Below, in pieces: positions 13,258 to 26,581 of a DNA stretch of 28,407 nt. Every line of letters starts with the position of its first letter. Within the stretch, counting starts at the first letter, position 1. The position numbers were made by a program, and so were the translations under genes. Below the pieces are notes generated by a model, which saw only the letters and a list, made by a program, of their open reading frames with translations, made no database searches and was not told the DNA's origin. The DNA is from a virus, in IMG/VR virus record IMGVR_UViG_3300035184_001224, positions 1 to 28,407 of that record. One strand, written 5' to 3'.

Positions 13258-13285
13258 TTGACATATGCCTCAGATAATGTATACT
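13258..13285 (+). promoter_or_regulatory. Sigma70-type promoter for the 415-aa gene
   Basis: Perfect TTGACA (13258-13263), a 16-base spacer and TATACT (13280-13285). The predicted start is about 25 bases before the ATG at 13318. It begins six bases after the oxygenase stop. Confidence 0.8.
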
Positions 13286-14569: not shown

Positions 14570-14579
14570 TGATAAATAT
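14570..14579 (+). promoter_or_regulatory. Late promoter (TGATAAATAT) for gene 13
   Basis: TGATAAATAT lies 19 bases before the gene 13 ATG and just after the preceding stop. It gives this neck gene late control inside a block of sigma70-driven genes. Confidence 0.7.
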
Positions 14580-14598: not shown

Positions 14599-15351
14599 AT
14601 GCCACAAGCAAGAAATAAAGTTAGAAATGATGTAATCAAGCAAATCAGATTGTTACTAGGTGACGGGATGATTGATATTGAATTGGATCCAGAGCATTAT
14701 GATATTGCTTTAGATGTTGCAATATCTAAAGTTCGCCAGCGTTCTGAGAATGCAGTTGAAGAAGACTATTATGCGCTAGAACTAAAAGAGGATGTAGCTG
14801 AATATACTCTTCCAGATGAAATCATGGAAGTAAAGCAAATCTGGAATCGTTCATTTGGCAATGGGGTTTCAGGTGGCGTTGATATGGATCCATTTGAACT
14901 TGCATATGCGAATTCGTACTTCTTTATGAACAATCATATTGGTGGCCTTGCAACTGCTGATTTCTTTGCGCAGTATCGCGAAACGCTTAACAAAGTAGCG
15001 GCAACTGATATTATGTATCTTTGGAATCCAGTCACAAAGAAAATCAAACTTCTACGTAGAATGAGACACGATACGCTAGTATTGATACATGTTTACTTAG
15101 AGCGTGATGAAGATCAATTAATGGTTGACCCATACTTAAAGTCCTGGATCAGAGATTATGCACTTGCATATTGTAAGCGTATGCTGGGAGAAGCACGTGG
15201 TAAGTTCTCTTCTCTACCCGGTGCACAAGGTGGAGTTACCTTGAATGGTGCTGAGATGAAAGCAGAAGCGGATGTATTAATAGAGAAGTTAGAATTTGAT
15301 CTAGCAAATTACGTAGATGGTTCCTCTCCATTAGGATTTATCATAGGCTGA
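14599..15351 (+). CDS. 13: Neck protein gp13
   Basis: This 250-residue protein fits the gp13 neck family, which with gp14 closes the filled head and receives the tail. Recognisable segments are the N-terminal helix with IELDPEHYDIALDVAISKVRQ (about 26-46), MDPFELAYANSYFFMNN (96-112), ATADFFAQYRETLN, IMYLWNPVTKKIKLLRRM, LIHVYLERDE and the C-terminal WIRDYALAYCKRMLGEARGKF followed by LPGAQGGVTLNGAEMKAEA. ATCGGAGAAC precedes the ATG. It is separated from gene 14 by two sigma70-driven genes and lies on the other strand, so the neck genes have been rearranged. Confidence 0.88.
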   Translation: MPQARNKVRNDVIKQIRLLLGDGMIDIELDPEHYDIALDVAISKVRQRSENAVEEDYYALELKEDVAEYTLPDEIMEVKQIWNRSFGNGVSGGVDMDPFELAYANSYFFMNNHIGGLATADFFAQYRETLNKVAATDIMYLWNPVTKKIKLLRRMRHDTLVLIHVYLERDEDQLMVDPYLKSWIRDYALAYCKRMLGEARGKFSSLPGAQGGVTLNGAEMKAEADVLIEKLEFDLANYVDGSSPLGFIIG

Positions 15352-15658: not shown

Positions 15659-16270
15659 ATGAAACATTATACCCCTCAAACATTTGGTGACCGAGTAGCA
15701 CTTGGTATTACACTATTCCTGCGTTGGTTCGCAGACACATTCTTTGCTAAACGCTATGGACATCGTGCAGTTGTACTAGAAACAGTGGCTGGTGTTCCAG
15801 GCATGGTAGCAGGTATGTGGAGTCACTTGCGTAGTTTGCGTAAGATGCAACCAGATGACAGAGGGTGGATTAAAACACTATTAGAAGAAGCAGAAAACGA
15901 ACGTATGCATCTAATGATATTCATTGAGATTGCAAAGCCAAATTGGTTTGAGCGTACACTTATATTATTTGCGCAGTTTGTATTCTGGCATTTCTATTTT
16001 GTTCTTTATGTGTTGTTCCCAAAAGTAGCTCACCGTATGGTAGGTTATTTCGAAGAACAGGCAGTGGTAAGTTACACACAATACTTGGAACAAATCGACA
16101 CTGGTGCAGTTGAAAATATACCAGCACCACAAACAGCAATTGACTACTATAATTTGAAATCAGATGCTAGACTGCGTGATGTAGTTATAGCAGTTAGAGA
16201 AGATGAAAGAGGTCACAGTGAAGTTAATCATGGCATGGCTAACATCCTTGTTCAAGAAGCAAGCGACTAA
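15659..16270 (+). CDS. aox: Alternative oxidase (AOX), cyanide-insensitive quinol oxidase
   Basis: AOX is a membrane-bound di-iron enzyme that oxidises ubiquinol and reduces oxygen to water, bypassing complex III and cytochrome oxidase without pumping protons. The 203-residue protein carries all six expected metal ligands: E41 in LETVAGVPGMVAGM, E81 and H84 in EEAENERMHL, a Glu at 132/133 in FEEQAVVSYT, and E183 and H186 in REDERGHSEVNH. The conserved Tyr of SYT (139) is present. Family-type segments FADTFFAKRYGHRAVVLETV and VENIPAPQTAIDYY are also seen. Hydrophobic helices near 100-122 fit monotopic membrane binding. Length is normal for bacterial AOX. It is AOX rather than the plastid-type PTOX of cyanophages. 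The canonical DEAHH motif is DERGH, keeping the ligand residues. It overlaps a small downstream gene. Confidence 0.95.
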   Translation: MKHYTPQTFGDRVALGITLFLRWFADTFFAKRYGHRAVVLETVAGVPGMVAGMWSHLRSLRKMQPDDRGWIKTLLEEAENERMHLMIFIEIAKPNWFERTLILFAQFVFWHFYFVLYVLFPKVAHRMVGYFEEQAVVSYTQYLEQIDTGAVENIPAPQTAIDYYNLKSDARLRDVVIAVREDERGHSEVNHGMANILVQEASD

Positions 16271-16394
16271 TCCCGATCCAGAATTCGATCCAAGAATTCG
16301 TATCAATTCAGAAAACATGACAGACGTTGAAAAGATGGATGTCGGTTTTAACGGCAAAACATACACCAACAACGGTATTGAATCAGATTTTTAA
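16230..16394 (+). CDS. Small protein overlapping the 3' end of the alternative oxidase gene (54 aa)
   Basis: A 54-residue frame starts at an ATG inside the oxidase gene (MAWLTSLFKKQ) and ends 124 bases after the oxidase stop with GIESDF. The overlap is 41 bases. After a short hydrophobic and basic N-terminus it is polar: ATNPDPEFDPRIRI, then NMTDVEKMDVGFNGKTYTNN. The coding-like composition continues well past the oxidase stop, and without it the gap to the pseudoazurin gene would be unusually long, so I consider it real. No known domain is visible. The overlap suggests coupled translation with the oxidase. A link to oxidase function is speculation. Confidence 0.6.
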   Translation: MAWLTSLFKKQATNPDPEFDPRIRINSENMTDVEKMDVGFNGKTYTNNGIESDF

Positions 16395-16403
16395 TTTAAT
16401 TAC

Positions 16404-16431
16404 TTGACTATTGAACAAGCTAAACTATATA
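16404..16431 (+). promoter_or_regulatory. Sigma70-type promoter for the pseudoazurin gene
   Basis: TTGACT (16404-16409) is followed by the AT-rich run TATATATAATATAA. TATATA at 16426-16431 gives a 16-base spacer; other -10 registers are possible. The ATG is at 16460 with AGAGGA upstream. Confidence 0.72.
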
Positions 16432-16459
16432 TAATATAAACACACAAGAGGAAACTAAT

Positions 16460-16888
16460 ATGAAAACATTACTATCAACTGTAGCCGTGATGGTTGCATT
16501 AACTACTTCCGCATTTGCAGAAGATACAACTGTAGAAATGCTAAACAAGCGTGATGATGGCGCTAAAATGGTATACAGTGAAGACATCACACGCATTGAT
16601 GTAGGCGACACAGTAACATGGGTACCAACATCAAAAGGTCACAATGTAGAATTCATTGCTGGCCCAGAAGGCTTTGACATTCCAAAGAAATCAAAGAACA
16701 GCAAAGAAGTTGCTATTACGTTTGATACGCCAGGCATCTATTACTACTGGTGCACCCCGCATAAAGGCATGGGCATGATTGCTCTACTCGTTGTTGGCGA
16801 TGATACATCAAACATTGATGATATTACAAAAGCAAAAGCAGTAGGCAAATCAAAGAAGAAACTAAAAGAATTACTGTCACAGTTGTAA
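16460..16888 (+). CDS. Pseudoazurin (type 1 blue copper protein), periplasmic electron carrier
   Basis: Pseudoazurins are small periplasmic cupredoxins that carry electrons, classically from the cytochrome bc1 side to copper nitrite reductase, nitrous oxide reductase or terminal oxidases. The 142-residue protein has a clear signal peptide (MKTLLSTVAVMVALTTSAFA, cleavage after 20). The mature part begins with the family-typical EMLNKRDDGAKMVY. Copper ligands are H61 (SKGHNVEF), C98, H101 and M106 in WCTPHKGMGM. The GDTVTWVPTSKGHNVE stretch and the helical C-terminal tail (about 115-142, Lys-rich) are typical of pseudoazurin and not of plastocyanin. It has its own sigma70-like promoter and ribosome site (AAGAGGAAACT). 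The basic surface could dock acidic partners. Phage origin of electron flow through it is inferred from context. Confidence 0.93.
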   Translation: MKTLLSTVAVMVALTTSAFAEDTTVEMLNKRDDGAKMVYSEDITRIDVGDTVTWVPTSKGHNVEFIAGPEGFDIPKKSKNSKEVAITFDTPGIYYYWCTPHKGMGMIALLVVGDDTSNIDDITKAKAVGKSKKKLKELLSQL

Positions 16889-16895
16889 TTTTAAC

Positions 16896-16924
16896 TTGAC
16901 AAAATCAATCTGTGATGCTATACT
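16896..16924 (+). promoter_or_regulatory. Sigma70-type promoter for the dNMP-kinase-like gene
   Basis: Perfect TTGACA (16896-16901), a 17-base spacer and TATACT (16919-16924). The -10 lies in the loop of a 15-bp perfect inverted repeat, so the promoter is a candidate for repressor control. The ATG at 16957 has AAGGAAC upstream. Confidence 0.82.
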
Positions 16925-16942
16925 GATTCACAGATTGATTTT
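16901..16942. repeat. 15-bp perfect inverted repeat around the -10 element
   Basis: AAAATCAATCTGTGA (16901-16915) and TCACAGATTGATTTT (16928-16942) are exact reverse complements separated by 12 bases. The left arm begins at the last base of the -35 box, the -10 box is in the loop, and the right arm spans the expected RNA start. It could be an operator, or, read as RNA from pseudoazurin, a terminator-like hairpin. Confidence 0.88.
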
Positions 16943-16956
16943 AAAGGAACTATCAC

Positions 16957-17552: not shown

Positions 17553-17562
17553 GAATAAATAC
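17553..17562 (+). promoter_or_regulatory. Late promoter (GAATAAATAC) for the tail sheath gene
   Basis: GAATAAATAC lies 42 bases before the gene 18 ATG, in a 117-base intergenic gap that otherwise holds no gene. Confidence 0.7.
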
Positions 17563-17604
17563 TCTTAATAAACAATAACACATGTTTTCATAAGGAGAAA
17601 TAGA

Positions 17605-20283
17605 ATGGCGACATTAGTATCCCCCGGCGTATCAGTGATGGTTTCAGATGAATCACAATACGTAGCAGCTACACAAGGCACACTACCGTTAGTTGTAGTA
17701 GCAACCGCATCAAACAAAACAGATGGCTCAGGCTCAAAAATTGCAGCTGGCACAATTCCAGCAAATGCTGGCGTTGCATATCTAGTTTCCTCACAGCGGG
17801 AACTAGTAGAAACATTTGGTGAACCAAAGTTCTATCAAGTAGGCGGTTCAGTTGTACAAGGTGCAGAGACAAGCGAGTATGGTCTATTAACTGCGTATCA
17901 GTATCTAGGTGTTTCCAATAACGCTTATATCATTCGCGCTGATATCGATTTATCAGAACTAGAAGCGACCACGGTAGAACCATCAGGTGTACTAGAAGAC
18001 GGAACTTACTGGCATGAAATCGCAGACTCCGCATATGGTATTTTTGAACATGATGGTACCGACTGGGTAGCAGTAACACCAGCAGTATTAAATGATGCTC
18101 CTGGCACTGGCAATGTTGAATCAATGAATTCATCCGGTTATGCAGCCCCAGAAAACACATTCGGTTCAACTGGCGATATAGCAGTCGTTACTTCAACTGT
18201 AAAAATTACATATTGGAAAAAAGTAGGAACGTCATGGGTTCTACTAGGTGACGTAGGATCTCCGACATTTTCATTCAGTGCATATGCGCCAGCAGGTACA
18301 GTAGGTGATATATATGTGAGATTGACAAAACAGGGTGGTGGTCTTGACATCACGGTATCTACATATAATGCAGTTTCTGGAACATTCCAAGCATTGCAAG
18401 TTCCAGTATATTCGTCAGATGATGCTGCACATAATGTTGGATTAAACGTTGCGGGTGACACTTATTTGCAACTATACACCGATACAATGGGTGTCATTGT
18501 TTTACGTAGACATTCGGGTGCATCAACTATTTCACTACAAAGTGATACTGCTATGCCAACCACATCTTCAATTAGTGTAGCATTTAGTGTACTAGCTGAA
18601 GGCATGAATGCAACATTTGCCTTCACTACTATGACATTAGATTCGATTATTACTTCACTACAGTCAAATTCTGAATTGAATACAAATAACGTTAAAATTG
18701 AAAAAGTCGGTACAAACAAAATCAGATTTGTGAAAACTGATGGCAAAACAATGACACTTTCCTTCTCGTCTGGCGCAGCGGCTCTAGGCTTTACTGTATC
18801 AAACCTTGTTGAAGGTAGTGCATGGGATGATTTGACATATGAAGCAAATATAAACACCCCCAAAGGTGCTATTGATCCTGGTGCTCTGTGGTATAATGCA
18901 GATTTAGCAATTGAATTAATGCGCGTTGAATTTGTAGGCGGTGTTCAGCAGTGGGTAACATATGCATGGTCAGAAGACCAAGATGGCATCTACGGTAATG
19001 AACTACAACTGCGTTCAACAAAGCCGACTGTGCGTAAAGATGGATCAACTGTTCTAGTAGCAGGTGATATCTGGGTAGATGGCGATGCAGTACCGTATCC
19101 AACAATCTATCGCTGGAGTGGCACGACATGGGTAAAACTAGACGGTGCTGATCAATCTTCTGTTAACGGTGTTTTATTTGGTAACTATTCAAATGATGCT
19201 CCGTATGATGAGTTTGGAAATGCAAATGCACGTACTGAACATGCAAACACGCCAAATGCAGAGTTGCTACCAGAAAACATTCTAATGGTAAACATGGATT
19301 ATTCTACTTATAATGTTAAGCAGTATACCGATGGCGCATGGGAGTGGGTTTCAGGAGTCAATCTAGATGGTTCTGGTAAGTTTGGCACAGACGCACAACG
19401 TCACATGGTAACAGAAGCAATGAGTGCTGCACTTGCAGGCAACGAGGGTATTCGTGCAGAAGCAGTATACTTCAACTTAATTGCAGCACCTGGTTATCCT
19501 GAATTGACTGATGAAATGATTGGTCTAAACAAGGACAAGAAAGAAATCGCATTTGTAGTTGGTGACACTCCACTAAAACTTAAAGGCGACACTACTTCTC
19601 TCAAGGCGTGGGCAGATAACAATACAAACATCGATGCTTATGCAGGTGTGTATTACCCACATGGACTATCAACTGATTTGTCTGGCAACGATGTAGTGAT
19701 GCCAGCATCTGCTATCGCACTACGTACAATTGCTTTCTCTGATCAGGTATCATTCCCTTGGTTCGCTCCTGCGGGCCTAACACGCGGTATCGTTACTAAC
19801 GCATCACAAGTTGGCTATGTAAATGATGAAAATGAATTCGTTCGTGTTCGTCTAACTGAAGGTCAGCGTGACGTGATGTATACAAATCGTATGAACCCAA
19901 TTGCAGATATGCCAGGTACTGGTCTAGTTGTATATGGTCAGAAAACAATGCAATCATTTGCATCTGCACTAGATCGTATTAACGTTGCAAGACTAGTTAA
20001 CCATATGCGTTATAGTCTAGATCAATTGTCACGTGGTTTCTTGTTTGAGCAGAATGATAAAATCACACGTGATAACATGCGTGATGCAGTAGAACGTTTC
20101 TGTGGCGGACTAGTGAGTAATAGAGGTCTATATGACTTCTTGGTTGTATGTGATGAATCAAACAACACTCCAGCACGTATTGATAGAAACGAACTATGGG
20201 TAGATATTGCAATTCAACCAGTAAAGTCAGTTGAATTTATCTATATCCCACTACGTATTCGTAATACAGGTGAAGAACTATAA
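17605..20283 (+). CDS. 18: Tail sheath protein gp18
   Basis: This is the contractile tail sheath subunit. The N-terminus MATLVSPGVSVMVSDES (1-17) is the usual sheath arm start, followed by a core segment with VSSQRELVETFGEP and LLTAYQYLGVSNNAYIIRAD. The C-terminal third is diagnostic: FAPAGLTRGIV, LNPI-type NRMNPIADMPGTGLVVYGQKT, RINVARLVNHMRYSLDQ, FLFEQNDKITRDNMRDAVERF and a final VKSVEFIYIPLRI. At 892 residues it is longer than T4 gp18 (659); residues about 120-500 look like inserted surface domains, including a TIYRWSGTTWVKLDG module. AAGGAGA precedes the ATG by six bases. It has its own late promoter and a terminator, so it is a one-gene unit. Confidence 0.93.
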   Translation: MATLVSPGVSVMVSDESQYVAATQGTLPLVVVATASNKTDGSGSKIAAGTIPANAGVAYLVSSQRELVETFGEPKFYQVGGSVVQGAETSEYGLLTAYQYLGVSNNAYIIRADIDLSELEATTVEPSGVLEDGTYWHEIADSAYGIFEHDGTDWVAVTPAVLNDAPGTGNVESMNSSGYAAPENTFGSTGDIAVVTSTVKITYWKKVGTSWVLLGDVGSPTFSFSAYAPAGTVGDIYVRLTKQGGGLDITVSTYNAVSGTFQALQVPVYSSDDAAHNVGLNVAGDTYLQLYTDTMGVIVLRRHSGASTISLQSDTAMPTTSSISVAFSVLAEGMNATFAFTTMTLDSIITSLQSNSELNTNNVKIEKVGTNKIRFVKTDGKTMTLSFSSGAAALGFTVSNLVEGSAWDDLTYEANINTPKGAIDPGALWYNADLAIELMRVEFVGGVQQWVTYAWSEDQDGIYGNELQLRSTKPTVRKDGSTVLVAGDIWVDGDAVPYPTIYRWSGTTWVKLDGADQSSVNGVLFGNYSNDAPYDEFGNANARTEHANTPNAELLPENILMVNMDYSTYNVKQYTDGAWEWVSGVNLDGSGKFGTDAQRHMVTEAMSAALAGNEGIRAEAVYFNLIAAPGYPELTDEMIGLNKDKKEIAFVVGDTPLKLKGDTTSLKAWADNNTNIDAYAGVYYPHGLSTDLSGNDVVMPASAIALRTIAFSDQVSFPWFAPAGLTRGIVTNASQVGYVNDENEFVRVRLTEGQRDVMYTNRMNPIADMPGTGLVVYGQKTMQSFASALDRINVARLVNHMRYSLDQLSRGFLFEQNDKITRDNMRDAVERFCGGLVSNRGLYDFLVVCDESNNTPARIDRNELWVDIAIQPVKSVEFIYIPLRIRNTGEEL

Positions 20284-26482: not shown

Positions 26483-26533
26483 AATGTGAAGTTTATTAGA
26501 TATATAATATACTATGCTAATAAACTTCACATT
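26483..26533. repeat. 17-bp perfect inverted repeat in the intergenic region
   Basis: AATGTGAAGTTTATTAG (26483-26499) and CTAATAAACTTCACATT (26517-26533) are exact reverse complements around a 17-base AT-rich loop containing TATAAT. There is no T tract after it, and the next late promoter starts two bases further on. It may be an RNA-stabilising hairpin, a terminator of unusual type or a protein site. Confidence 0.9.
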
Positions 26534-26535
26534 GG

Positions 26536-26545
26536 TGATAAATAC
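26536..26545 (+). promoter_or_regulatory. Late promoter (TGATAAATAC) for the 95-aa fibre protein
   Basis: TGATAAATAC lies 36 bases before the ATG at 26582 and directly after the 17-bp inverted repeat. Confidence 0.75.
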
Positions 26546-26581
26546 TAGTAATGAAATAAATCTTTTTAGGAGAAAGAATAC

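Follow-up and report, generated by a model that had tools for sequence, protein, structure and literature searches.

A predicted RNA hairpin around a host-type promoter may confine translation of a phage kinase gene to transcripts from that promoter

In the present study, we analyzed a 28,407-base virus contig (the window, meaning this whole stretch of DNA) and found a perfect dyad around the promoter of a kinase-like gene. A single RNA hairpin is predicted to span this putative host-type (sigma70) promoter; its left arm would be the promoter spacer, and its right arm would form the start of the kinase leader and abut the Shine-Dalgarno (SD) sequence. Sequence comparisons and folding models make it probable that the kinase is translated only from RNA of its own promoter, and that RNA arriving from upstream folds into the hairpin and stays silent. 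Upstream transcripts (from the cupredoxin, alternative oxidase [AOX], and adaptor genes; probably late RNA) would carry both arms and fold, and the folded read-through RNA would bar ribosomes from the kinase start. Transcripts from the embedded promoter, which would start within the right arm, would have no left arm and would be translated. The kinase would be made solely from its own, presumably early, promoter despite its place in a late structural cluster. We infer promoter activity, its timing, read-through, and the translational effect from the features in Table 1 and from their relatives.

Table 1. Features of the window around the dyad and its neighboring genes
Feature	Position	Strand	Remark
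Left hairpin arm AAAATCAATCTGTGA	16901-16915	+	In the -35/-10 spacer, 5' of the predicted RNA start
Right hairpin arm TCACAGATTGATTTT	16928-16942	+	Predicted +1 falls within
-35 hexamer TTGACA	16896-16901	+	Exact in 59/59 distinct kinase promoters
Extended -10	16916-16924	+	TG 16916-16917, TATACT 16919-16924
Shine-Dalgarno AAAGGA	16943-16948	+	Directly at the stem base
Deoxynucleoside-monophosphate-kinase-like gene, 176 aa	16957-17487	+	Behind the promoter; phrog_38514 8e-54, phrog_139 1.7e-11
Cupredoxin (plastocyanin/azurin family)	16460-16888	+	Upstream of the hairpin; PF00127 4.4e-16
Head-tail adaptor gene	14599-15351	+	phrog_211 5.3e-33
Tail sheath gene	17605-20283	+	3' of the kinase; phrog_10581 1.3e-225
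ATAAATA, late-promoter-like	14572-14578	+	5' of the head-tail adaptor gene; bare 7-mer not above chance frequency
ATAAATACT, late-promoter-like	17555-17563	+	5' of the tail sheath gene; 5 in the window vs 0.87 expected

The arms of the dyad are complementary at 15 of 15 positions and enclose a loop of 12 nt, and the left arm shares one base with TTGACA. The promoter reads TTGACA-17-TATACT, with a 17-nt spacer plus the TG of an extended -10 element. The predicted +1 lies at approximately 16931, in agreement with the AUG of relatives, which is mostly located 6 nt past the -10 element. With the left arm in the spacer, RNA from the local promoter would be devoid of the 5' arm; RNA begun a few bases earlier would include more of the right arm, still without the left arm. 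Two perfect dyads with arms of at least 12 and loops of 3-25 were present in the whole window. In 400 first-order Markov sequences, 0.0475 dyads with arms of at least 12 and 0.0025 with arms of at least 15 were expected per window. The RNA fold of the dyad was predicted at -21.5 kcal/mol (z -5.6), and none of 200 shuffles was equally stable. The original prediction had described a 15-bp perfect dyad in which the left arm lies at the end of TTGACA, TATACT lies in the loop, and the right arm covers the predicted +1. This description was exact in its pairs, coordinates, and geometry, and the expected number of dyads bears out the claim that a chance origin is improbable. The suggested relevance of the dyad to RNA arriving from upstream also holds. 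Further copies of the half-site, which the original prediction had proposed to look for, were absent from the remainder of the 28,407-base record at up to 2 mismatches. Scans of the window against Rfam and for tRNAs returned no match.

The window encodes a T4-like sheath and tube, a head-tail adaptor, an alternative oxidase, and a cupredoxin. Among cultured phages, the nearest relatives of the sheath are found in jumbo myoviruses, for example PA5oct (approximately 39% identity). The alternative oxidase and cupredoxin genes adjoin each other (15659-16888) and are flanked by the adaptor gene and the kinase; cupredoxin was absent from every other kinase locus fetched. The motif ATAAATACT resembles the T4 late promoter core and occurs on the + strand at 613, 17555, 20371, 26538, and 28307. 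Four of these five copies lie shortly 5' of ORFs, among which are fibre-like, sheath, and tube genes. The kinase gene has no ATAAATACT ahead of its start, and the nearest late-like motifs are those at 14572 and 17555. ATAAATA at 14572 is a possible source of late read-through RNA. Placed among virion genes, a metabolism gene would form part of all late messages, and the hairpin or a leaderless start would tie the kinase to its own promoter.

The second perfect dyad of the window, at 26483-26533, has 17 of 17 bp paired and a 17-nt AT-rich loop, and is directly followed by ATAAATACT (26538-26546). We rejected it as the same device because no -35 element is present in register; it resembles a hairpin that precedes a late promoter. 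Another promoter-like sequence, TTGACA-16-TATACT at 13258-13285, is located directly 5' of a 415-aa gene (phrog_11903), and no hairpin over the SD was found at this promoter or in 7 relatives (p 0.10-0.92).

Sequence and folding support the promoter, the hairpin, and its position in the window, and the promoter, the complementarity, and the locus are conserved among kinase relatives. Two scans yielded 160 kinase loci, plus the window. Since the loci partly share contigs, distinct sequences or clusters were counted. Four loci with a match near the contig end (L011, L021, L078, and L521) were kept out of the promoter analysis, which covered 157 loci including the window and superseded an earlier set of 29 hand-picked distinct leaders. 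Seven of the 157 were set aside: L060 had no start, and L464, L467, L494, L496, L499, and L524 had no recognizable promoter. The sheath gene is next in five of these six. The 157 loci gave 59 distinct promoters, with a spacer of 17 nt in 55 and 16 nt in 4; 35 had a leader and 24 were leaderless, with the AUG 5-6 nt past the -10 element, at the predicted +1. A sheath gene was nearby in 152 of 167 kinase loci and an adaptor gene in 139 of 167. On the - strand, L003, L009, L035, L058, L061, L075, L076, and L080 carry a leaderless near-perfect promoter with the AUG 6 nt after the -10 element; the gene behind it begins MKVLVxGDxIxDKYIYG and is sugar-kinase-like by eye.

Arm sequences vary widely across the kinase relatives though the promoter stays. 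In L058, CTCCTAAC is paired with GTTAGGAG, and in L510, AGTTCCTCTG is paired with CAGAGGAAC. The core of the window arm, TCAATCTGTGA, was missing from all kinase relatives and occurred in 4 of 531 loci, two of which are the window itself. Kinase proteins in a sample of six were 84-94% identical to the first one while the arms vary, and, thus, the leader evolves much faster than the gene. The predicted helices contain G-U pairs in 30 of 34 kinase leaders, and the window stem is the longest unbroken one among them. On these sequence comparisons, the conserved feature is the complementarity of the promoter spacer or -10 element with the ribosome-binding region, not the arm sequence. Leaderless relatives would reach the same end by a second route, with the AUG at the predicted +1. 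A leaderless message has no space ahead of its AUG for an SD, and its read-through RNA should, therefore, be poorly translated. Distant kinase homologues were present in 35 records of cultured phages. Seven regions were opened, and all had same-strand neighbors, mostly of nucleotide or DNA metabolism; in six, DNA polymerase, thymidylate synthase, or pyrophosphohydrolase was beside or fused to the kinase; among the five homologues scored, there was no promoter-like match above 8/12.

We compared the predicted cost of opening the ribosome-binding region in read-through RNA, in own-promoter RNA (start 7 bases past the -10 element), and in RNA with a shuffled spacer. In the 35 kinase leaders, SD opening required 6.71 kcal/mol in read-through RNA, 1.01 in own-promoter RNA, and 3.31 in shuffled RNA (p<=0.05 in 15/35). 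The zone from -20 to +6 required 11.66, 2.77, and 7.19 kcal/mol, respectively (p<=0.05 in 17/35). The remaining 18 of 35 were not significant singly by this footprint, and L067 and L076 look open. In the window, this zone required 12.9 kcal/mol in read-through RNA, 4.2 in own-promoter RNA, and 5.2 in shuffled RNA, with a p value of 0.024, the floor of 40 shuffles. The SD of the window lies outside the stem, and SD opening alone required 1.5 kcal/mol in read-through RNA vs 1.0 in own-promoter RNA (p 0.10 and 0.15). Since the SD of the window is barely harder to open, it is the ribosome footprint that carries the gating claim for the window. In many relatives, such as L003, L058, and L510, the SD is inside the helix.

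Spacers were also swapped between clusters. SD opening decreased from 6.79 to 3.28 in the kinase (8 clusters, P 3e-5) and from 9.13 to 4.77 in a second gene family, M (16 clusters, P 1e-5). With random cluster members (9 and 16 clusters), the floor of P 0.001 was reached in 100 of 100 draws by both measures. These swaps support a specific pairing, as modeled, in two unrelated gene families. The fixed-register paired fraction was above that of shuffles and was reached by 19/2000 in M and 0/2000 in the kinase. Double-change pairs did not exceed shuffles (M, 4 vs 3.2; kinase, 5 vs 4.5), and the same was true of pair types. The weak covariation probably results from a right arm held by the SD and from register shifts between lineages.

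As a positive control, T4 gene e gave an SD opening cost of 14.4 vs 2.9 kcal/mol, and the method, thus, recovers the known case. AU-rich leaders fold readily, which is a caveat on the folding evidence. As a negative control, 89 viral promoter-SD-ORF units among the matches listed by a pattern scan gave 2.42 vs 2.45 for the null, with p<=0.05 in 4 of 89 (4.45 expected). On this sample and on the promoter at 13258 with its 7 relatives, a strong promoter close to an SD does not by itself bring the device with it. Since the 89 units showed no effect, the arrangement is a trait of particular genes, not of promoters generally.

The M family (phrog_27048) has no assigned function and is unrelated to the kinase; its protein had no match in the phage collection. 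L240 was left out, and the distinct leaders L200 and L227 were not evaluable. A promoter was present in 32 of the 40 evaluated leaders, in which SD opening required 10.4 in read-through RNA, 3.1 in own-promoter RNA, and 3.5 in shuffled RNA, with p<=0.05 in 22/32. None of the 8 leaders without a promoter reached this level. The device is stronger in the M family than in the kinase. A third family, found through L284, showed p<=0.05 in 8 of the 15 leaders that had a promoter and in 1 of the 13 that had none, counts that are biased by the choice of L284 for showing the device; a subset of 80 loci was evaluated, and 7 loci without a start were dropped. The homologue of this family in Melnitz phage starts 11 nt past the upstream gene, which leaves no space for a promoter between the genes. 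In three further single genes, the spacer likewise shows complementarity to the SD region: L160:219 (8.7 in read-through vs 1.0 kcal/mol in own-promoter RNA), L122:9167 (8.1 vs 1.3), and L277:9138 (11.4 vs 3.5).

A perfect 15-bp dyad centered on the -10 element may also be read as a DNA operator, in which a repressor or activator dimer occupies both arms and regulates the RNA polymerase at the promoter. We consider this very unlikely. The original prediction had named such a site and had taken arms that are not conserved beside a conserved promoter as counting against its reading, which is what the kinase relatives display. TCAATCTGTGA is missing from them and rare elsewhere, the record holds no second half-site, and 24 of the 59 promoters are leaderless, with an AUG too near the -10 element for a leader arm. 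The right arm follows the ribosome-binding site, and the G-U pairs in predicted helices also argue against the binding of a protein to DNA. Since complementarity is conserved though the arms are not, the dyad points to an RNA structure acting on translation.

The hairpin may instead end the cupredoxin message, after which a promoter would serve the next gene; such an arrangement is reported for the PeSL cassettes of T4-type phages. The original prediction had likewise proposed the end of the pseudoazurin transcript. The window stem does end in UUUU, and a T run of at least 5 follows the stem in 3 of 31 M-family stems. However, the U tract of the window is just 4 long and is itself paired, the loop is 12 nt, the stem is AU-rich, and it was not among the terminator-like sites of a scan confined to loops of 3-8. 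The stems of relatives run into the SD, and none of 34 kinase leaders has a T run of at least 5 at the stem end. The upstream ORF stops a median of 3 nt before the -35 element (32 of 34 leaders in which an upstream ORF was found), which leaves no room for a terminator. A dyad of at least 9 bp after the stop was found in 14 of 80 cupredoxin relatives, a figure with no chance rate beside it, and, as noted, the other kinase loci fetched lack cupredoxin. We rejected termination as a general explanation and consider it unlikely for the window, while retaining it as a rival for some M-family leaders. The perfect stem and its z of -5.6 would also suit a hairpin that affects the decay or processing of read-through RNA alone, as a ribonuclease site or protective stem, and not the start of translation. 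We regard this as highly improbable because it leaves unexplained both the pairing of the spacer with the SD region in relatives and the leaderless alternatives at the same locus.

The gating of translation by promoter choice may extend beyond this kinase. In a large group of uncultured marine T4-like phages, genes with host-type promoters in late operons may translate solely own-promoter RNA, through a hairpin or a leaderless AUG at +1, interchangeably, and the T4 lysozyme switch would be reversed (on early, off late); we consider the case for this wider proposal to be evenly balanced. If gating of this kind is real, phages insulate single genes from neighboring transcription at the level of translation, and they do so repeatedly 5' of unrelated genes. 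The promoter's own spacer would be the blocking strand, and a region usually deemed free of information would carry RNA structure. It would also be a simple blueprint, amenable to testing, for genes that are read solely from their own promoter, and may provide a route to predicting early-expressed genes in the late clusters of uncultured phages.

Related arrangements exist in other systems. In IS10 and IS50, external RNA with the outer inverted-repeat arm hides the transposase start, and RNA from the internal promoter does not. These elements differ from the window in being transposons, the arms of which are terminal repeats. The PeSL cassettes of RB49 and phi1, reported by Arbiol in 2010, are said to combine a sigma70-like promoter with a stem-loop and to be terminators and repeated mobile cassettes. 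The window resembles them in having a sigma70-like promoter with a stem-loop in a T4-type phage. However, neither a terminator nor repeats were found here, with a U tract of 4, a loop of 12 nt, and a half-site that is single within the record.

Translational gating by a hairpin over the ribosome-binding site is described for T4 e, soc, 49, and I-TevI in the excerpted text of PMC3014915, in which the e and I-TevI promoters are late and the effect for e is 100-fold. As in that account of e, the promoter in the window lies between the arms, longer RNA would hide the ribosome-binding region, and local RNA would lack the 5' arm; the costs predicted for the window zone (12.9 vs 4.2 kcal/mol) also place a helix over it. 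In contrast, T4 relies on late promoters (TATAAATA) that leave these genes off early and on late, whereas the window promoter is of the sigma70 type, the sequence of which suggests that the kinase is on early and off late. The SD of the window is also at the stem base, not inside the stem. For Bacillus subtilis sigG, the excerpt of PMC5942855 proposes that a large hairpin blocks the translation of spoIIG read-through RNA; RNA from the sigG promoter itself cannot fold into it. This absence from own-promoter RNA would be shared with the window; however, sigG belongs to a bacterium, not to a phage, serves sporulation, and has a promoter of the sigma F/G type. In seg43(25) of Aeromonas phage 25, a very stable hairpin has the ribosome-binding site immediately 3' of the stem base, as in the window, and the excerpted text of PMC2988022 mentions no sigma70 promoter inside it. 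That text leaves the effect of this similar hairpin on translation undecided, which counts against the gating reading. The same review, as excerpted, gives the endonuclease-specific promoters of T4 homing genes as middle or late, with none early (PMC2988022). The literature searched, with subscription papers mostly outside its coverage, contained no report of a sigma70 version of a hairpin-embedded promoter in phages, and we, therefore, class the present arrangement as a variation on a known type of gating. The proposed gating principle is that of T4 e and sigG, combined here with a promoter of the sigma70 type and a gene lodged in a late structural cluster.
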